This document shows positions 12,201 through 32,493 of a stretch of DNA of 32,829 bases, piece after piece. The notes beneath the pieces were generated by a model that saw only the letters and a program-made list of their open reading frames with translations, was not told the origin of the DNA and searched no databases. A program made the translations under genes and the position numbers. Origin of the DNA: an uncultured Lachnospiraceae bacterium (GTDB lineage Bacteria > Bacillota > Clostridia > Lachnospirales > Lachnospiraceae); the NCBI GenBank assembly GCA_947167135.1, contig CAMVGV010000030.1:1-32829 (forward strand). Direction: 5' to 3'. The first letter of the stretch is position 1, and every line of letters starts with the position of its first letter.

Positions 12201-12226
12201 CCATCCTGAGCGAAGCGAAGGATCTT
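12201..12226 (+). repeat. TGTCATCCTGAG-family copy at the ppk stop
   Basis: A short-form copy lacking its first bases (CCATCCTGAGCG to GGATCTT). Its last two T bases are part of the ppk stop codon (TTA on plus, TAA on minus), so the element starts exactly where the reading frame ends. Confidence 0.85.
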
Positions 12227-14444
12227 AATTCTCCTCCCCCGCAGGACTCATCTCCGGAATGAAAACCCTGTCAGTCAGGACCTGCTGTCTCCTTCTGGCG
12301 TTTTCAAGTGCCTCCTTGCAGAGCTCCTTCTGGGAATTCACCGCCTTTTTCCCCCTCCTGTCGGGCTTTTCGTAATTTCCCTCGGGGGTGAGCACATGAG
12401 CCTTAATTGTATCAGAAAGCTCAAGGGAAAGGAAGTGCCTTAAATCTGCCCTTAATTCCTCGCGCTCTACAGGAAAGACTATCTCCACCCTTCTGTCCAG
12501 GTTTCTCGGCATCCAATCGGCGCTGCCGAGGTAGTACTCCTCGTTTCCCCCGTTCAGGAAGTAGAATATCCTGCTGTGCTCCAGGAAAAAGCCCACTATG
12601 GAGCGCACCGTTATATTCTCCGAAATACCGGGGATCCCTGTCTTCAGGCTGCAGATACCCCTTATTATGAGATCGATCTTTACACCGGCAGCGGAAGCCC
12701 TGTAGAGAGCCTCTATGATATCCGGATCACAGAGGGAGTTCATCTTTGCGATTATCCTTGCTTCCCTTCCTGCCTTTGCATGCATTTCCTCCCGGCCTAT
12801 CAGATAGATAAACCTGTCCTTTAGCCAGAGAGGTGCTACGGAAAGCTTATTCCAGGCAACAGGCTCCGAATAACCGGAAAGCATATTAAAGACAGCGGTA
12901 GCGTCCTCACCTATAGCCTCCGAGCAGGTTAAAAGCCCCATATCGGTATAGAATCTGGCGGTGGTATCGTTGTAGTTTCCGGTACCCAGGTGCACATATC
13001 TCCTTATGCCCTCTTCTTCCCGCCGTACCACAAGGGCTATCTTTGAATGGGTCTTTAAGCCGACAAGTCCGTAGATCACGTGGCAGCCCGCTTTTTCAAG
13101 GGTTCTCGCCCAGTTTATGTTATGCTCTTCATCGAATCTCGCCTTTAATTCCACCAGTACCATGACCTGTTTTCCGTTCTCTGCGGCCCTTGCAAGTGCC
13201 GCAATTATAGGCGAGTTTCCGCTGACCCTGTAAAGTGTCATTTTTATGGCAAGGGTATCCTTGTCATCGGCGGCGGTCCTTATGAAATCCACCACCGGTT
13301 CAAAGGACTCGTAGGGGTGCTGCAAAAGTATATCCCCCTTCCTTATCTGGGTGAAGATATCCTCGTCCTTTACCATGTACTTCGGCTGTCTGGGGGTCCA
13401 GCCCGGGATCTTTAAGTCATCATAGCCCGGAAGGGAAGCGATCTTTGACAGGAAGGCAAGATCCAGTGGTCCGTTTATCCTGTAAATATCCTGCTCTCCC
13501 ACATTCAGTTCTTCAATAAGGATATGAAGAAGCGCCGGATCTATCCCCTCTTCCACCTCAAGCCTTATGACCTCGCCCCACTGGCGCCGCTTTACCTGCT
13601 TTTCAATCTCTTTAAGGAGATCCTCGGCCTCATCCTCATCTATTGCGAGGTCGGCATTCCGCATGATCCTGAATGGATGGGCGCATTCTATCCTGTAATT
13701 AAGGAAAAGACGGCTGAGATTCCGCTCAATAACCTCCTCCAGAAGAATAAAGGTTCTTTCGCTCTTACTGTCGGAGCCCAGATCTGAAGGAATGGCTATC
13801 AGCCTGGGCAGCACATCCGGCACCTGAACCAGCGCAAAGTCCGTCTCAGCCGGCTTTTTTTCGCCGTCCTTTTCCCTCTCCCTGCTCAAAAGATTCGCGC
13901 TGTCAAGGGGAGTCATTATTGCCCCTATATTAAGCGTCTTGTTTCTAACGAGCGGGAAGGGTCTTGAGGAATCCACCGCCATGGGGGTAAGAACCGGGAA
14001 TATCTCCTCTTCAAAGTATTTGTCGAGATATGCCCCTTCCTTCGCCGACAGCTCCTCATGCCGCGAAATGATCCTTATGCCCTTTTCCTTCAAAAGAGGC
14101 AGCAGCGAACGTCTCCAGGTCACATACTGCAGATCCGTGAACTCATGTGTCACCGTGGAAAGCTCGGAAAGCTGTTCCTTCGGTGTCATCCCTGCGATAT
14201 CCCTTTTATTATAGCCTGCATGAACCATATCCTTTAAGGATGCCACCCGCACCATAAAGAATTCATCCAGATTTGATGCCGTGATCCCCAGCATTTTGAC
14301 ACGCTCTAAAAGGGGAAGGCTCTTGTCCCTCGCCTCTTCCAGAACCCTCTCGTCAAACTTCATCCAGGAAAGCTCCCGGTTAATGTAATACTCCGGAGAT
14401 CTGTAATCAATACCACCCGTTTTCTTTTTGTCCCATGTCTTCAT
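12225..14444 (-). CDS. ppk: Polyphosphate kinase 1
   Basis: A 739-residue enzyme that reversibly moves the gamma phosphate of ATP onto inorganic polyphosphate. The N-terminal domain opens with YINRELSWMKFDERVLEEA and SNLDEFFMVRVASL, both typical of PPK1. The two phospholipase-D-like catalytic domains follow. The autophosphorylated histidine is H466 in GLVGLKTHSKIALVVRREE, and the second conserved histidine is H623 in FFLEHSRIFYF. The nucleotide- and metal-contacting stretches KMTLYRVS and LVELKARFDEEHN are intact. Length is normal for the family. It starts 13 bases after the ppx stop with AAAGGAACAGGA upstream, so both opposing polyphosphate enzymes are in one operon. Confidence 0.97.
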   Translation of the reverse strand: MKTWDKKKTGGIDYRSPEYYINRELSWMKFDERVLEEARDKSLPLLERVKMLGITASNLDEFFMVRVASLKDMVHAGYNKRDIAGMTPKEQLSELSTVTHEFTDLQYVTWRRSLLPLLKEKGIRIISRHEELSAKEGAYLDKYFEEEIFPVLTPMAVDSSRPFPLVRNKTLNIGAIMTPLDSANLLSREREKDGEKKPAETDFALVQVPDVLPRLIAIPSDLGSDSKSERTFILLEEVIERNLSRLFLNYRIECAHPFRIMRNADLAIDEDEAEDLLKEIEKQVKRRQWGEVIRLEVEEGIDPALLHILIEELNVGEQDIYRINGPLDLAFLSKIASLPGYDDLKIPGWTPRQPKYMVKDEDIFTQIRKGDILLQHPYESFEPVVDFIRTAADDKDTLAIKMTLYRVSGNSPIIAALARAAENGKQVMVLVELKARFDEEHNINWARTLEKAGCHVIYGLVGLKTHSKIALVVRREEEGIRRYVHLGTGNYNDTTARFYTDMGLLTCSEAIGEDATAVFNMLSGYSEPVAWNKLSVAPLWLKDRFIYLIGREEMHAKAGREARIIAKMNSLCDPDIIEALYRASAAGVKIDLIIRGICSLKTGIPGISENITVRSIVGFFLEHSRIFYFLNGGNEEYYLGSADWMPRNLDRRVEIVFPVEREELRADLRHFLSLELSDTIKAHVLTPEGNYEKPDRRGKKAVNSQKELCKEALENARRRQQVLTDRVFIPEMSPAGEEN

Positions 14445-14457
14445 AAGTCCTGTTCCT

Positions 14458-16014
14458 TTATGCCTTTTTCCTTAGTACCGGTTTAAGTCCGAAAACCTCC
14501 TCAAAGAGACCTGTTTTTTCAAAGAACAGCCCTCTTTCCAGAGCAATGTTATTGTCAGTATCAACTGTTATGATAAGCTCCTTATCCTTGACAACGGCTT
14601 TAACACCGTTAAATCTCCTCTTATAGCTCCTGACCATTCCCGATGCCAGCCGGAGTATGGCGGTCAGCTTCACCACCGTAAGGTAATTTTTCTCGTCGAA
14701 TCCGCTTTCCATAACGTCTTCATAGGAGATATCCTTCGGATAGGAGGATGATACTATCACCGCAACCATCTCCCTTTCCACATGGGAGAGGCCGATTATC
14801 TCCGTCCCCATTATTATCGAATAGGCACTGGGACCGGGAGTTGACAGGGAGACAAATCTTCCCACATCCCGCAGTCTTGATGCTATCTCAAGGATCAGCC
14901 TTCCCCTGGCATCCAGACCGTGATACTTCTTCATACCGTCAAATACGGCAAGGGCGCTCTTTGAGAGGATATCCCCCATATTCTGTCCGCCCCGGTATCT
15001 TGTCGAGATATTCTCGACACTGGTAATGATATCCTGGCTGAAGTCATGGTCTGATCTTATTATCCTGTTCTTTTCGGCATAGTCATAGGCGATACCGTCG
15101 GACAGAGCCACTCCGGGGACAAAGATCTTTACGGCCTCCACCGCCTTTATTAAGTGCTTTACTATATATGCCGAGGGAATGAGGAGGGAGGCGCTCTCCA
15201 TGGGGATCCCGATCTCCCTTGATATCTGCTCCCCGGACATCTGCTTAAGCCTGTCGATGAACTTCACGAACTGTTCCGCCGTAACGGAGCGCTCATCGCT
15301 GTCTCCCTGAACCGCTGCATCGTACATTCCTTCTCCGGAAAGCTTATGCAGTATATAGGGAAGGTGGTCATCTATAACAATGATATTCTTTATGGAGAGC
15401 TTTTTCAGATACATCTTTTTGAAGCCATGTATCTCATTTTCGATAAGCTCGCTTAAAAGCTCCTCATAGCTGTAGCTTGCAGGCTCCAGCTCGCTTAGGG
15501 AGCGCCTTAGCCGGAGCTTCCCGAGCATCAGGTTCACCGTGGTTATAAGCTTTGATGAATCAAAGATCGAAACCTGTGTGCTGCCGCCTCCGATATCGAT
15601 AAGTGCGGTGCCGCTCTCGATTATGCTGTGGAAATTCCTGCTTTTCAGCGCCACAGACTTGATATCCAGAAAGCGCTGCTCCGAATTACTTAAAGGGAGC
15701 ACCGTGATCCCGGTCCTTAGCTTTATATGGTCAAGGATCACCTTTGTATTGTCGGTCTCCCTGATTGCGGAGGTTCCGAAGGCACGGAAGGAATCCACGT
15801 GGTAGGAATCCATTATCTCCTTAAAGCCCTTAAGCACGCTACAGAGCTCATCCATACGTTCATAGCTTATTTTACCGGTATTGTAGCTGTCCGTGCCAAG
15901 CTCTATCCTGTGCCTTATATAATCAAGCTCCTTAACCCCGTTTTTCCGGCTTAGCTCAAATATCTTCATTCCGATCTCATAGGAACCCACATCTATCGCT
16001 GCAAATAGCTTCAT
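14458..16014 (-). CDS. ppx: Exopolyphosphatase, Ppx/GppA family
   Basis: A 518-residue ASKHA-fold phosphatase that would remove terminal phosphate from polyphosphate, or the 5' phosphate of pppGpp. The phosphate 1 motif is AAIDVGSYEIGMKIFE, the conserved FGTSAIRE and the second phosphate loop LIDIGGGSTQVSIF are present, and the C-terminal third is an HD-like helical domain containing LDARGRLILEIASRLRDVGRF. In E. coli Ppx this domain extends the active site. The HHIGHHDH-type motif is not obvious here, so it may be structural. It lies between the AAA+ gene (28 bases upstream) and ppk (13 bases downstream). Ppx versus GppA activity cannot be separated by sequence; the ppk neighbour favours Ppx. 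Confidence 0.93.
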   Translation of the reverse strand: MKLFAAIDVGSYEIGMKIFELSRKNGVKELDYIRHRIELGTDSYNTGKISYERMDELCSVLKGFKEIMDSYHVDSFRAFGTSAIRETDNTKVILDHIKLRTGITVLPLSNSEQRFLDIKSVALKSRNFHSIIESGTALIDIGGGSTQVSIFDSSKLITTVNLMLGKLRLRRSLSELEPASYSYEELLSELIENEIHGFKKMYLKKLSIKNIIVIDDHLPYILHKLSGEGMYDAAVQGDSDERSVTAEQFVKFIDRLKQMSGEQISREIGIPMESASLLIPSAYIVKHLIKAVEAVKIFVPGVALSDGIAYDYAEKNRIIRSDHDFSQDIITSVENISTRYRGGQNMGDILSKSALAVFDGMKKYHGLDARGRLILEIASRLRDVGRFVSLSTPGPSAYSIIMGTEIIGLSHVEREMVAVIVSSSYPKDISYEDVMESGFDEKNYLTVVKLTAILRLASGMVRSYKRRFNGVKAVVKDKELIITVDTDNNIALERGLFFEKTGLFEEVFGLKPVLRKKA

Positions 16015-16042: not shown

Positions 16043-17632
16043 TCAAACTCTGACTCCCTCCAGATACAGTATAAACTGCTCAGCTGTCCTGCCGCTCATT
16101 CCTCCGTGGGACAGTTCCCACTTATTTGCTTCATAGAGGAGCTCCTCATCGCTTATTTCAAGCCCTCTTCTTTTCGCAAGTGTCAGTACTATATTGTCGT
16201 ATTCCTTTTTTCCCGGACGTCCGAAGTAGATCTTTTCACCGAACCTCGCGGATAAGGACAGCTTTTCCTGCACCGTATCGCTCTCGTGGATATCATCGTT
16301 CTTTCCCCGGTCCAGCTTGTCGGAAAAGCCCTCGTGTATCAAATGCCTCCTGTTGCTCGTTGCGTAGATCAGGATATTGTCCGGCTTCTTTTCGAGACCT
16401 CCCTCGATAAGTGCCTTCAGATATTTGTACTCAACCTCAGAGTCTTCAAATGACAGATCATCCATATATATGATAAAGCGGTAATTCCTGTTCTTTATCT
16501 CCTTCACCACATCATTTAAGTCACCGGCCTGATGCTTAAATACCTCTATTATCCTTAGGCCTTCATCAAAGTAACGGTTAAGTATACCCTTTATGCAGCT
16601 TGACTTCCCGGTGCCCGCATCCCCGAAGAGCAGCACGTTGTTTGCGCTCCTCCCCTTCAGGAAGGCCTCGGTATTGTCAACGAGCCTCTTTTTCTGTGCT
16701 TCCATGCCCACAATATCCTCAAGCATGACATGCTTTACCCTTGTTATGGGCTCGATAACGAGCTTTTCCTTCTCGTCATGGCTTAGCCTGAATGCCTTAT
16801 GCTGTCCGTACTTTCCGACTCCGAAATCCCGGTAATACTCATTCAGGTTTCGAAGGAAGTCCTCATCGTCTTCAGATCCCTCAAGCTTTTCTGACAGCGC
16901 TACTATCCTGTCCCTTATCCTTTTATTGAAGGTTTCCCCTTCTCTCAGATGATCCGCATCGTAAGAATCTATCAGTACTTTTATCCCGTCTTCCCCGGAG
17001 TTAAAGATTCTTCCCGGGTCCAGCTTAAACAGTGATCTGAATATAGCTACATCGTGCAATGCCGCGTCCTTTAAGCTCCCGCCTATCTCTCCCCGTCTCT
17101 CTGCCGCCAGGGTGTACGGGTTTTCATTATTTATGAGAGTATAAGCCAGAAAGCAGTGCCAGAGATTCCCGTAAAAGCCGTAGCGCTCCGACAGTGCGAT
17201 AAGCTCCGATAGTACGGAATATGCCTTTCCTTCATCTGCCCCGTCTTTCCCTAAAGCGAGACCTTCTATGCTTTTCAGAATATCCTCGTGCTTAAGTCCC
17301 TTATAGAGTATAAGAGCATCGGTCCCAACCGGAGAGTCAAAGACCGTCTGTTCTCCAAGACCCCTTTCCTTCATAATTTTATACTGCTTCTTCCGGCTCT
17401 CGGACATAATATCCTCAAAAATCCTCGTCACCCCACCGGCATTGAAATCATTGTGGGTAAGCGTCTTCAGTCTTTCAAGCTTCGAGCGTTCTCTTTCTCT
17501 GTCAAGGACCTTCATCCCTTTTTCGATCTTATATCCCGCGATACTCTCGCTGACTGCCATCCTCTCCTCGTAGAGCGACACTATCCTTTCGTCTATTCCG
17601 TCTATTTTTTCACGTAATTCCTGCAGCTCCAT
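16043..17632 (-). CDS. Chorismate mutase (AroQ) fused to DUF815 AAA+ ATPase
   Basis: A 529-residue soluble fusion. Residues 1-85 match the AroQ chorismate mutase domain, as found at the N-terminus of PheA proteins. Aligned by eye to the E. coli enzyme, every active-site residue is present: R7, R24, K35, D44, R47, E48, S79 and Q83. Residues about 90-525 match the DUF815 AAA+ family: Walker A GDAGTGKSS (about 336-344), Walker B-like FIIYMDDLSFED (about 380-391), then EGGLEKKPDNILIYATSNRRHL and an arginine-bearing SARFGEKIYFG. DUF815 proteins have no settled function. AGGAGG lies five bases before the ATG. It is the first gene of the operon with ppx and ppk, so its job may be linked to phosphate or stress state. 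I know of no such fusion, but cannot search. Confidence 0.9.
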   Translation of the reverse strand: MELQELREKIDGIDERIVSLYEERMAVSESIAGYKIEKGMKVLDRERERSKLERLKTLTHNDFNAGGVTRIFEDIMSESRKKQYKIMKERGLGEQTVFDSPVGTDALILYKGLKHEDILKSIEGLALGKDGADEGKAYSVLSELIALSERYGFYGNLWHCFLAYTLINNENPYTLAAERRGEIGGSLKDAALHDVAIFRSLFKLDPGRIFNSGEDGIKVLIDSYDADHLREGETFNKRIRDRIVALSEKLEGSEDDEDFLRNLNEYYRDFGVGKYGQHKAFRLSHDEKEKLVIEPITRVKHVMLEDIVGMEAQKKRLVDNTEAFLKGRSANNVLLFGDAGTGKSSCIKGILNRYFDEGLRIIEVFKHQAGDLNDVVKEIKNRNYRFIIYMDDLSFEDSEVEYKYLKALIEGGLEKKPDNILIYATSNRRHLIHEGFSDKLDRGKNDDIHESDTVQEKLSLSARFGEKIYFGRPGKKEYDNIVLTLAKRRGLEISDEELLYEANKWELSHGGMSGRTAEQFILYLEGVRV

Positions 17633-17698
17633 GAATCCTCCTGATCCCGTGATCTACTGCCACGGCTTATTGTTCCACCCCTCAATATACACCCTGTT

Positions 17699-17728
17699 AT
17701 TGTAGCCCATTTTGCCTCTTTCTTTCAA
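17699..17728 (-). promoter_or_regulatory. Promoter of the polyphosphate operon
   Basis: On the minus strand TTGAAA (17728-17723) and TACAAT (17704-17699) are separated by 18 bases, a good sigma-A-type promoter. Transcription would start near 17692 and give a leader of about 60 bases before the chorismate mutase-AAA+ gene. Confidence 0.5.
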
Positions 17729-17742
17729 TCCTATTTTAATGA

Positions 17743-17911
17743 TGTCATCCTGAGCACCCCACTCCTGTCATTTCGCTATGCTCATCCTGTATTCCACTGT
17801 CATCCCGAGCGCTCCACTCCTGTCATCCTGAGGAGCGAAAGCGACGAAGGATCTTCTCGCACCAGCTTCCGGCAAATGTCATCCTGAGGAGCGAAAGCGA
17901 CGAAGGATCTT
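17743..17911 (+). repeat. TGTCATCCTGAG repeat cluster, two identical 35-base copies
   Basis: Heads only at 17743 (TGTCATCCTGAGCAC), a degenerate copy at 17768, and a head at 17798 (TGTCATCCCGAGCG). Two identical long-form copies follow at 17821-17855 and 17877-17911. The long form has a longer centre (GAGGAGCGAAAGCGACGAAGG) than the short form and can fold with a GAAA-capped inner stem. The cluster fills the gap upstream of the polyphosphate operon promoter. Confidence 0.9.
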
Positions 17912-26034: not shown

Positions 26035-28113
26035 ATGAGGCTTTTTCGGGACAGAACGAAATATATCCGGATTTTGACCGCGGCATTCGGCGCGGTCATT
26101 ATCTTTCTGGCGCTTTCCGGCCTGGAGTCTTATAACAGTTCTTCAGCCATATTCCTTAATGAAGTCTGCACCTCGAATTTAAGCTGTCTCTATGATGATG
26201 ACGGTAGAACTCCCGACTGGGTGGAATTAAAGAATATCTCCGACAGGGACGTGGATATCACCGGCTTTTATATCTCCAGAGGCTCCTATGATAAGGAATA
26301 CTGCCTTCCGTCCCTTATTGTGCCTGCCGGCGGCTTTCTGACCATTACCCTGCCATTAAACTTCAGTGCCGGGGACACCATAGTTCTTTCGGACAGAAGC
26401 GGCAGTATACTGGACAGCGTGAATCTCCCGTCTCTGGATTACGATACCTCATTTTCCAGAGGGGAGGGAAAGGAATGGGACAGGACTCTCCCCACTCCGG
26501 ATAAGGAAAATTCAAAAGAAGCGCTGGGCTTCCCGGAGCTTAATGAGCCCCTCTTTTCTGAGGAAAGCGGTTTTTTTGATGAGCCCTTTTATCTCTCCAT
26601 TAGCTGCGGTAACGGTGAAAGAATTTACTATACCCTGGACGGCAGCGAGCCGGATGAGGGATCTTTTCTCTATACCGGGCCCCTTCTTATCGGTGACAGC
26701 AGCACCGGGGATAATAAGTATTCCGCCATCAAGGATATCTCCGTCGCATATACCGCTCCGTTGCGCTATGTCCTCCCTGACTATAAGGTGGATAAGGCAA
26801 CTGTGATCAGAGCCCGGGTCTTTGATGATAAGGGCAGATACAGCAGATCCGTAGACAGGAGCTTTTTTGTTGGATTTCAGAACAGACCTGAGTATAATGA
26901 CACCCCCATCGCATCCCTGATCTTTGACCCTGCCGATCTCTTCTCGGATGAAAAGGGCATATATGTGCTCGGAGACAGATACAAGGCATATATTGACAAT
27001 AATGAAGAAGAGAGCTACGACAAAGCCGATATCTGGTGGTGGACCCCGGGCAACTATTCCCTCCGCGGCAGGGAATGGGAAAGAAGGGCGCACCTCTCCT
27101 TCTTTGATGAAGACAGGGATCTTTTATTTGACTCGGATGCGGGTGCCCGGATAAAGGGCGGCGGCTCCCGGGGCTTTGCGCAGAAAAGCCTGAAGCTTAC
27201 CGCCCGCACCTCCTACGGCAGGGATAACTTCGGGAGCATTGTGCCCGGAAATGTCAGGAAACAGAAAAAGCTGGCTCTTTCCAGTGGCGGGGACGACATC
27301 AACACCAAGCTTAAGGACTCTCTTATTGCCGGTCTGGCCGCTGACACGAACATCGCCACTCTTGCAAGCAGACCCTGCTTTGTTTTCTTAAACGGTGAAT
27401 ATTTCGGCCTTTACCAGCTTTCGGAGGAATTCGGACGGGACTATATTGCCCGGCACTACGGTGTAAATGAGGAAAACATCGTTATGATTAAAAATGACCT
27501 TGTGAAGGTTGGTTCTCCTGAGGATAAGGAGCTCTATGACAAGCTGAATTCCTTTATCACAAACACCGATTTTTCCAAGGACAGGGAATTTGAGACCTTA
27601 TGTGAAATGGTGGATATGGACAGCCTTATCGACTATTTCGCGGTAAATATCTATATTGAGCACACGAATGACTGGCCGGGAAGCAACTTTGCCCTGTGGC
27701 GCACAAAGGAAAAGGAGGACGGTGCCTACGGTGACTGCCGCTGGAGATGGATGCTCTTTGACGTTAATTCCGTTTCCATGGAAAAGGATAAGTATGACGC
27801 GGATACCCTGTCCGAGGTTCTTAATAAGAATTACATAATGAAATCGCTTATTAAAAGCCCTTTATTCAGGGATCGATTTGCTAAGCGTATGGAGGAGCTG
27901 CGGACCACGATTTTTGACCCGGCGAGGACCGATAAGGAAATTGACAGACTTGTTTCCGCCATGTCTCCCGGAATGGAGGGCTTCTACAGGCGCTATTACG
28001 GGGACAGGATGGATCTTGATCACTTTCTCTCAGAGGCAGAGGGACTTAAGGAATTCTACCGCCGCAGAGGCGACTATGTGCAGGAGCACGTAAAAAGGAT
28101 CTGCGGGGAGTGA
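26035..28113 (+). CDS. Surface CotH-kinase protein with lamin-tail domain
   Basis: A 692-residue exported protein. Residues about 9-31 are an uncleaved or signal helix. Residues about 37-150 resemble a lamin-tail domain (FLNEVCTSN, PDWVELKNISDRDVDITGFYIS). Residues about 185-290 hold a chitobiase-type beta domain with RIYYTLDGSEPDEGS. From about 295 it is a CotH-kinase domain with FDPADLFSDEKGIYVLG, GARIKGGGSRGFAQKSLKL, VFLNGEYFGLYQLSEEF, YIEHTNDWPGSNFALWR and WRWMLFDVNSVSM. Characterised CotH proteins are atypical kinases of the spore coat; in non-sporulating gut bacteria such proteins are mostly surface-anchored and uncharacterised. It is 12 bases after the second permease with GAGAGG upstream, so it is probably cotranscribed with the importer. 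Repeats begin five bases after its stop. Confidence 0.88.
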   Translation: MRLFRDRTKYIRILTAAFGAVIIFLALSGLESYNSSSAIFLNEVCTSNLSCLYDDDGRTPDWVELKNISDRDVDITGFYISRGSYDKEYCLPSLIVPAGGFLTITLPLNFSAGDTIVLSDRSGSILDSVNLPSLDYDTSFSRGEGKEWDRTLPTPDKENSKEALGFPELNEPLFSEESGFFDEPFYLSISCGNGERIYYTLDGSEPDEGSFLYTGPLLIGDSSTGDNKYSAIKDISVAYTAPLRYVLPDYKVDKATVIRARVFDDKGRYSRSVDRSFFVGFQNRPEYNDTPIASLIFDPADLFSDEKGIYVLGDRYKAYIDNNEEESYDKADIWWWTPGNYSLRGREWERRAHLSFFDEDRDLLFDSDAGARIKGGGSRGFAQKSLKLTARTSYGRDNFGSIVPGNVRKQKKLALSSGGDDINTKLKDSLIAGLAADTNIATLASRPCFVFLNGEYFGLYQLSEEFGRDYIARHYGVNEENIVMIKNDLVKVGSPEDKELYDKLNSFITNTDFSKDREFETLCEMVDMDSLIDYFAVNIYIEHTNDWPGSNFALWRTKEKEDGAYGDCRWRWMLFDVNSVSMEKDKYDADTLSEVLNKNYIMKSLIKSPLFRDRFAKRMEELRTTIFDPARTDKEIDRLVSAMSPGMEGFYRRYYGDRMDLDHFLSEAEGLKEFYRRRGDYVQEHVKRICGE

Positions 28114-30831: not shown

Positions 30832-32493
30832 TTACAATGCCGATTTCTCAATCCTGCAGCTGTATTTACCGCTTTTCTTTGAGTAGTTGATGCCGACGAG
30901 GAGAATATCCCCCTTATATCCTGACAGGACTCCGGTATAATTCTTATCTCTTATCTGCTTTATGGCAGCCCTGGCACTTCTGTTCCACTTCAGTTCCACT
31001 ATCAGGGCCGGTTTCTCGCCCTCCCTTTTCGGTATAAAGGCAATATCCGCAAAGCCACGCCCTGCAGGAAGCTCCCTTATCACATGGTAGTCAGCACGGG
31101 CAGTATAGTAGCTTATCATTATAGCTACGGCAAGTGCATTCTCATCATGGAAGTTTATGATGGATGCGTAGTCCTGGTGGGATGCGGAGATTATCTCTGC
31201 AACCTTCCTTTCATCCATGGCTATGGTGGCAATTAAGAGATCTTCTGATTTTTCCAGCGCATCACTCACATCATCCCAGTCCCCGGTCTCTATGGCGCTC
31301 TGAAAGACCTCCGCCACCTCGCGGTTAGGAATAAACGCCTCCTTTGTATAAGCGTCATATCCGAGATATCCCATATGTATGAGGCAGGCTAAGACATCGT
31401 CTTTCTTTTTGAACTGTACAAGGTCATTCTGGAAGTTGTTGATATTAACCTTTCTCCGCCCTCCCGACAGCATAAATACCACGTCTTCCTTAAGCCCTGC
31501 ATAATTCAGGGTGATGAATTTTCTTAAGGAACCGAAAGAACCGGTGTTTTTCCAGTAAGAAACCAGGGGACCCCTCATCAAAGCTTCCACAACAGAGTTT
31601 GGATTGTAGATGTGATGCAGCCTCTGGTACCGGCTGTTTATTATTCGCACACTGCCGTTTTCATAATCATTACCCTCTTCAGCGTTTTTTTCCGGAGCAT
31701 CAGAATACATGTAGTATCCGTCATACCAGTCCCGGATCTCCTCCATATTCCGGTTATGGATTCTGCATTCTTTATCTACTTCAGTCTGCGTAAATCCAAA
31801 ATATCCGACCAGTTCCCCGGGATCCGTCATAGTGTACTCACTAAAGTTATTGAGGGCAGATTCTCCGTCAACCTTCTTAATGGGAAGTATACCCGTGATG
31901 TACCCAAGAGCGAGGAACTTCTTTGACTCCTCTGTCTTAAAGTAGCCCCGGAGATATTTAAGATAGTTCTTTATAAGTTCTGAATTCTCAGGATCGTCTC
32001 TGACAATACAGTCGTACTCATCTATGATTATGATGAAGCGGATGCCGTCATTTTTAAATACCAGATCTATTGCCTCTGCCGTATCCTCCGGTTTCAGCTT
32101 CTCCAGATACGGGAACTCTTCAATCATTTCCCGGAGAAGTCTTCTGTCCATCTTGGAAATAATATCATCCGGAGTTTTCGCGGCATTAAAAAAGGTCGCT
32201 ACATCAAAGTGGAGGACGTTGTATTTATTCAGGTGTTCCCCAAACTCCGGATCTTTTGCGATTACATAAGGTGCGAAAAGCTCTTTTGAATCACACCCCC
32301 TGCTGTAATACGCATCTATCATCCCGGCTGCCATGGATTTCCCGAAACGTCTTGCACGGCTGACAGCGAAATAGCGTTTAGTTCCTCCGAGGGCACTGTT
32401 CAGGATAGACAACATTCCTGTCTTGTCAACATATATGCTGCTGTGTGAATCCGAACTGAAACTCTCATTATTCGGATTTACATATGTCCCCAT
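30832..32493 (-). CDS. AAA-ATPase-like protein with PD-(D/E)XK nuclease fold
   Basis: A 553-residue cytoplasmic protein of the AAA-ATPase-like/DUF1703 group. Seen directly: VDKTGMLSILN near the N-terminus, Walker A-like SRARRFGKSMAAG (about 45-57), Walker B IIIIDEYDCIV (about 153-163), and a C-terminal PD-(D/E)XK domain where D in GFADIAFIPKREG and E-x-K in LIVELKWN are the catalytic-type residues, followed by ALIVELKWNRSARAAIKQIR and LLVGINYSKKSG. The family is common in gut anaerobes, often in many copies per genome, and its role is not established; mobility or defence has been suspected. AGGAGG lies eight bases before the ATG. It stands alone. Confidence 0.9.
   Translation of the reverse strand: MGTYVNPNNESFSSDSHSSIYVDKTGMLSILNSALGGTKRYFAVSRARRFGKSMAAGMIDAYYSRGCDSKELFAPYVIAKDPEFGEHLNKYNVLHFDVATFFNAAKTPDDIISKMDRRLLREMIEEFPYLEKLKPEDTAEAIDLVFKNDGIRFIIIIDEYDCIVRDDPENSELIKNYLKYLRGYFKTEESKKFLALGYITGILPIKKVDGESALNNFSEYTMTDPGELVGYFGFTQTEVDKECRIHNRNMEEIRDWYDGYYMYSDAPEKNAEEGNDYENGSVRIINSRYQRLHHIYNPNSVVEALMRGPLVSYWKNTGSFGSLRKFITLNYAGLKEDVVFMLSGGRRKVNINNFQNDLVQFKKKDDVLACLIHMGYLGYDAYTKEAFIPNREVAEVFQSAIETGDWDDVSDALEKSEDLLIATIAMDERKVAEIISASHQDYASIINFHDENALAVAIMISYYTARADYHVIRELPAGRGFADIAFIPKREGEKPALIVELKWNRSARAAIKQIRDKNYTGVLSGYKGDILLVGINYSKKSGKYSCRIEKSAL

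Follow-up and report, generated by a model that had tools for sequence, protein, structure and literature searches.

The window, by which we mean the whole stretch of 32,829 nucleotides analysed from an uncultured Lachnospiraceae bacterium, carries on its minus strand at 16043..17632 a gene whose ATG-started translation of 529 amino acids joins an AroQ chorismate mutase (CM) domain to an AAA+ ATPase domain of the DUF815 family. A reading made from the sequence alone had placed a feature at these coordinates, which hold; what has to be corrected is the strand, as the plus-strand frame of 16043..17632 is full of stops. The fusion gene is followed after 28 nt by ppx of the Ppx/GppA family (14458..16014, minus strand, Pfam 92.2 bits), and ppx after 13 nt by ppk1 (12225..14444, minus strand, NCBIfam NF003920 with 991.1 bits against 935). 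These are the second and third genes of an operon read throughout from the minus strand, directly downstream of the fusion, which heads ppx-ppk as had been said.

Four nucleotides upstream of the ATG the sequence reads AGGAGG, a Shine-Dalgarno-like element (17637..17642, minus strand), and at 17699..17728 on the same strand there is a weak sigma-70-like promoter match, TTGAAA-18-TACAAT, in a region that yields three such sites against a mean of 3.3 after shuffling. Between the fusion gene and a gene for an HD-domain response regulator, at 17743-17911, a 35 nt unit occurs twice together with a related 29 nt pair. Elsewhere in the window lie a CotH kinase-like protein with Fn3-associated and lamin-tail-like matches (26035-28110) and a predicted AAA-ATPase_like/PDDEXK_9 protein (30835-32493); Rfam and tRNA scans over the whole 32,829 nt gave no matches.

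The CM domain occupies residues 6-84 (17381..17617, minus strand), as supported by Pfam, by alignment with the E. coli CM structure 1ECM and by an AlphaFold2 model, and accords with the sequence-only reading, which had given the first 85 residues to a mutase. The fusion clears the CM_2 (PF01817) cut-off with 78.4 bits against 27 (E 4.7e-22) and spans profile positions 1-80 of 80. All eight active-site positions that had been named agree with the 1ECM alignment: R7, R24, K35, D44, R47, E48, S79 and Q83, for which we take the E. coli equivalents, numbered along that alignment, to be R11, R28, K39, D48, R51, E52, S84 and Q88. In the model this part forms a three-helix protomer (3-37, 45-58 and 62-89), with pLDDT of 69-87 over residues 1-90 in blocks of ten. 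None of the NCBIfam equivalog cut-offs for CM is reached by the fusion (the best is TIGR01791, 54.7 bits against 66.95), and its Pfam matches include neither a prephenate dehydratase (PDT) nor an ACT domain, so that it does not classify as a P-protein (PheA).

The remainder of the protein begins with a variable linker (residues 90-105, 17318..17365, minus strand), in which pLDDT falls below 50 at 95-99 and which is the fastest-evolving stretch of four close fusions. A helical N-terminal region, delimited by alignments and the model (residues 106-276, 16805..17317, minus strand) and also found in stand-alone DUF815 proteins, leads to the DUF815 AAA+ domain, a Pfam match over residues 277-526 (16055..16804, minus strand). 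The DUF815 (PF05673) cut-off is cleared with 304.6 bits against 23.8 (E 5.4e-91); both Pfam scores thus bear out the earlier proposal of a complete CM domain fused to this ATPase. The motifs comprise a Walker A GDAGTGKSS at 337-345, a Walker B with D391 and D392, a sensor-1-like N427, an arginine-finger-like R463 and a sensor-2-like R515. All of these ATPase motifs are conserved across the 96 rows that cover Walker A, the fusion among them. The AlphaFold2 monomer model, built from 131 aligned sequences, reaches a mean pLDDT of 90 and a pTM of 0.78, and lays the protein out as three CM helices, a low-confidence linker, a mainly helical stretch to about residue 277 and then the AAA+ domain. The linker contains no in-frame ATG, GTG or TTG and the nearest preceding in-frame ATG is M87; because there is no in-frame start between M87 and the DUF815 part, the gene probably yields DUF815 solely as part of the fusion.

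Several lines of evidence bear on whether the fusion serves the cell as an enzyme. The source genome (2.9 Mb, 99.8% complete) has a single CM_2 match, the fusion itself, and no match of the CM_1/AroH type, and it also encodes chorismate synthase, prephenate dehydrogenase (PDH/TyrA) and PDT. Exactly one CM_2 match was found in each of the 13 genomes tested that carry a fused or stand-alone CM, and in the five fused members of the genus and in Butyrivibrio sp. SIG341 that sole match is the fusion. The eight active-site residues are kept in all six fused rows of the alignment and in a seventh fused protein, that of G600, and in the seven stand-alone-CM rows 55 of 56 such positions are kept, the exception being a G at position 79 in L192. 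Among the four close fusions the CM part has a dN/dS of 0.03-0.32 (four of six pairs, those with measurable dS) and the AAA+ domain one of 0.01-0.03, with linker dN at 0.08-0.50; by these values the fusion is under purifying selection. No other CM is recognisable, selection preserves this one, and chorismate synthase, PDT and TyrA are encoded alongside it, which makes the fusion very probably the cell's working CM; the sole occurrence, the residues and the selection together allow the CM half to be assigned with fair confidence.

The synonymous divergence of the CM part is out of step with that of the AAA+ part: between the window gene and Lachnospiraceae bacterium AD3010 dS is 0.21 for CM and 0.57 for AAA+, and the CM region of RGIG3735 is saturated against both the window gene and RUG14895 and stands at 2.98 against AD3010. 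This mismatch hints at recombination inside the gene.

The fusion extends well beyond the window. In the genus, 45 of 48 genomes searched gave a match, and in five of them the fusion is a single open frame: the source genome, G185 (96%), G159 (89%), G151 (90%) and G170 (56%). The window and the relatives at 89, 90 and 96% identity make four species with the fusion in common, and one of these three close relatives is AD3010, whose record bears no MAG label. Three further lineages beyond this group also have it, namely RUI563 and SIG341, each represented by one MAG, and G600, represented by one genome. The check in homologues that the sequence-only reading had asked for thus places the fusion in three close relatives and three further lineages, with the eight residues intact in all seven fused copies. 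A search of 397 genomes of the family (389 matched) gave at least two fusions free of internal stops, those of the window and G600, among the matches listed, and in an earlier search of 150 genomes (149 matched) the window held the only fusion among the matches listed; the census is to be read as a lower bound. Four relatives, G190, G164, G173 and G194, have instead a short CM gene at DUF815. Stop codons lie inside some matched stretches of G184, G175, G177 and G194. Long open frames suggested full-length pheA-DUF815 fusions in G790 and G806, which proved to be separate ORFs, and those of G429 and G230 were rejected as candidates for want of a CM match.

A frequent arrangement in the family is a pheA gene (CM-PDT-ACT, mostly 375-400 aa) followed by DUF815, ppx and ppk. 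Upstream states were assigned by BLAST over a distance of 1.5 kb, among others for 80 loci from named genomes, which were chosen for matching the fusion protein best and are not a random sample. Of these, 63 have pheA on the upstream side of DUF815 within that distance, five have a fused gene, four a stand-alone CM and seven neither, and one ends at a contig edge. Downstream of DUF815, ppx and then ppk follow in 72 of the 80, and in 58 of the 63 loci of the pheA type. DUF815 stands without an upstream pheA or CM in 11 of 135 Lachnospiraceae rows. In G153 DUF815 is missing from the group of pheA, ppx and ppk, and another contig encodes a DUF815 protein (49%).

Forty DUF815 loci were taken from outside the family, 20 from a class search in which 87 of 196 genomes exceeded the DUF815 cut-off and 20 from a phylum search (90 of 199). 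No neighbour recurs in more than five of these loci, pheA is absent within five genes on either side of DUF815 in all of them, and a ppx-like gene is near in one, two genes away, with none within five genes in the other 39. As no partner recurs across the 40 loci, no function can be given to DUF815 by association. Foldseek ranks highest Rpt subunits, spastin, RuvB and YjoB (TMq 0.24-0.32), all of them general AAA+ domains, and among the 50 matches listed there was nothing but such general domains. The papers found for DUF815, which we take to be the same as COG2607, are by title and abstract opening genome, proteome or metagenome reports.

These neighbourhoods bear on a proposal that the sequence-only reading had made, in which chorismate or prephenate is linked to polyphosphate metabolism. 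Here the CM would sense chorismate or prephenate, or serve to dimerise the protein, and would in this way adjust the ATPase and, by way of the operon, polyphosphate metabolism. The operon is indeed shared with ppx and ppk, and the CM fold, as in other AroQ enzymes, is likely dimeric; but the source genome, which encodes chorismate synthase, PDT and TyrA, has no other recognisable CM, so that a pure sensor would deprive phenylalanine and tyrosine synthesis of its first step, and DUF815 elsewhere does without a CM, with no ppx-like gene within five genes in 39 of the 40 outside loci. We therefore consider a sensor very improbable. Beyond neighbourhood nothing supports the link to polyphosphate, and since the pheA-DUF815-ppx-ppk adjacency is already common in the family we do not uphold it. 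That the CM fold dimerises the ATPase is possible.

The same distribution can be read as a sign of a functional partnership, in which the target of the AAA+ domain is the CM, and was earlier perhaps the PheA dimer, with ATP-dependent control or remodelling in place of the ACT control that was lost, and in which the fusion fixed a partnership that existed before. The 63 of 80 named loci with pheA within 1.5 kb upstream of DUF815 agree with such coupling, as do the recurrence of the fusion in four lineages of the DUF815 tree and the catalytic residues kept in both halves. On the other hand, pheA is missing within five genes of DUF815 in the 40 loci outside the family, 11 of 135 rows inside it have DUF815 with neither pheA nor CM upstream, adjacency and loss of the PDT would already be enough to make a fusion likely, and the linker is the fastest-evolving stretch of the protein. 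On balance coupling is a doubtful explanation. It is likewise unlikely that in Lachnospiraceae DUF815 uses ATP to regulate or assemble the PheA or CM dimer. If it did, the fused AAA+ domain would control chorismate flux after the loss of the ACT half, and aromatic amino-acid synthesis would be tied both to ATP and to the operon's polyphosphate genes.

The explanation that we favour, a working CM joined to a DUF815 protein that keeps its own role, has to account for the missing half of PheA, and here the PDT genes are informative. The single PDT match of the source genome lies on another contig than the fusion and has no ACT match. All nine members of the genus with a fused or short CM have a PDT frame of 179-214 aa, each adjoining DAHP synthase, and a separate PDT was present in all four further fused or stand-alone-CM genomes tested. 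In a PDT tree of 50 rows the PDT of the source genome falls in a second PheA lineage, apart from the PDTs that adjoin DUF815 (100/99). This second lineage holds CM-PDT-ACT genes (G079, G155 and G590) and PDT-ACT genes (G589, G585 and others), several of which adjoin DAHP synthase; in G079 and G155 the second PheA is whole and there is no pheA at DUF815. The separate PDTs of L152, L165 and L192 belong to the second lineage as well. SIG341 took a different route, as its separate PDT (319 aa) groups on a long branch (99/93) with the side of pheA1, the pheA that lies upstream of DUF815, and not with the second lineage. In G589 (L149) a short PDT adjoins DAHP synthase, yet there is no CM gene at DUF815. 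The 77% complete G156 has a PDT frame of 210 aa and no match to the fusion.

No genome seen had both pheA1 at DUF815 and a PheA linked to DAHP synthase, and the second PDTs of five pheA-type members of the genus fall on the PDT tree in a third group distant from both PheA lineages; an ancestor with two PheA enzymes is therefore one that we infer. These third-group PDTs (L061, L063, L064, L066 and L068) are 310-336 aa long in four cases and in L066 lie inside an ORF of 764 aa.

The junction between the two genes can be followed in the relatives. At DUF815 the stand-alone CM gene is 89-144 aa long, and its stop overlaps the DUF815 start by 11 nt in G164, G194 and L165 and by 41 nt in L152; the two genes are separated by 4 nt in G190 and G173 and by 60 nt in L192, and in G655 by an in-frame TAG and a gap of 6 nt. 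As the two genes overlap or nearly touch, most of these relatives are one indel or one altered stop away from a joined frame. A TAG in frame with DUF815 closes the preceding pheA or CM gene in G790 (L325 4888-4890) and G655 (L323 near 6046), both of which came up in the genome search as long open frames. The fusion junction of RUI563 retains a GGAGG and in-frame ATGs, and this gene could make both fused and separate forms of DUF815.

How often the frames were joined was read from trees. In a quick first DUF815 tree of 135 rows (distinct rows, with copies and pieces below 330 aa dropped and unknown residues removed) the fused state, known at that stage from six rows, took three changes. In a later DUF815 tree of 91 rows, made without eight long-branch rows (the stand-alone-CM row L192 included) and about half of the non-genus pheA rows and with three loci added, the seven fused rows amount to four changes, all forced by well-supported branches, and a single origin occurs in 0% of 200 bootstrap trees; the stand-alone CM state takes five changes, and rows of the pheA state do not enter these change counts. 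In a CM tree of 122 rows and 95 columns well-supported branches force one change for the fused state, and the stand-alone CMs of G190 group with those of G164, G173 and G194 (97/85), contrary to the DUF815 tree. Given this conflict a transfer or convergence of the CM part is conceivable. By the DUF815 tree the fusion thus seems to have arisen at least four times, which the weaker CM tree does not force.

Since the genes are separate in relatives and in places lie one indel or stop apart, one may ask whether a sequencing indel has simply joined them, or whether the CM is a dying stub. An error of this kind would not readily recur in four species, the AD3010 record included, and a relic would not be expected to keep the full set of eight active-site residues in each of the seven fused copies, to show a CM dN/dS well below 1 or to be the sole CM_2 match in five fused members of the genus and in SIG341. 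An artefact or relic is hardly credible.

We therefore prefer the reading, to which we give a probability of roughly 0.78, that the fusion is the working and sole CM of the cell attached to a DUF815 protein that keeps its stand-alone role, that it was born by reciprocal domain loss, and that its domains are largely independent. Under this reading the CM domain would make prephenate for TyrA and for the separate, ACT-less PDT, and the DUF815 domain would retain the role of the stand-alone AAA+ ATPase. AroQ enzymes dimerise, and the CM of the fusion is expected to do likewise; the two parts would act largely independently over a flexible linker. Many Lachnospiraceae already have pheA, DUF815, ppx and ppk side by side, so that the loss of the PDT-ACT half of pheA suffices to explain the fusion. 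On our reading PheA1, a CM-PDT-ACT protein encoded upstream of DUF815-ppx-ppk, lost its PDT-ACT part, a second PheA adjoining DAHP synthase lost its CM and ACT, the leftover CM stub came to touch or overlap the start of DUF815, and an indel or stop-codon change joined the frames. In the lineage of the window such reciprocal loss between two PheA enzymes is probable, with the order of events deduced from the genes and trees.

Comparison with known systems places the fusion close to PheA. Like the P-protein it has an N-terminal CM and the same place in the operon, and among the unfused CMs of the genus the highest-scoring matches are those in pheA from sister species (G184 62%, G180 61%, G158 61% and G162 60%), in line with the resemblance to PheA noticed earlier; it differs in having DUF815 in place of PDT and ACT, with the PDT encoded elsewhere without ACT. 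Fusions of CM to PDT-ACT and to PDH (the T-protein TyrA, CM-PDH) and a rare exported CM-CDT are described in PMC10520331, and a DAHP synthase-CM fusion is known by the name of NCBIfam NF009239. In T-protein TyrA, CM-CDT and DAHP synthase-CM, too, an AroQ CM is joined to another protein, but those fusions pair it with another enzyme of its own pathway, whereas in the window the partner is an AAA+ ATPase. For CM-CDT PMC10520331 reports that fusion brings no catalytic benefit, which fits a neutral reading of CM-DUF815. With stand-alone DUF815 proteins the fusion shares the helical N-terminal region and an AAA+ domain with intact motifs; they lack its CM extension of about 105 residues. The sequence-only reading knew of no account of this architecture, and in the openly licensed literature searched, by titles and abstract openings, we likewise found no description of a CM joined to an AAA+ ATPase.

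As far as that literature goes, an AAA+ ATPase is thereby added to the partners of CM. A likely consequence is that the fused CM escapes the feedback that phenylalanine exerts through ACT. The fusion can be seen forming stepwise, apparently several times, with intermediates that survive in relatives, and it probably exemplifies the reciprocal loss of domains by a pair of bifunctional PheA enzymes. Finally, it places DUF815 in a common Lachnospiraceae operon, pheA-DUF815-ppx-ppk, where its function is open to testing.
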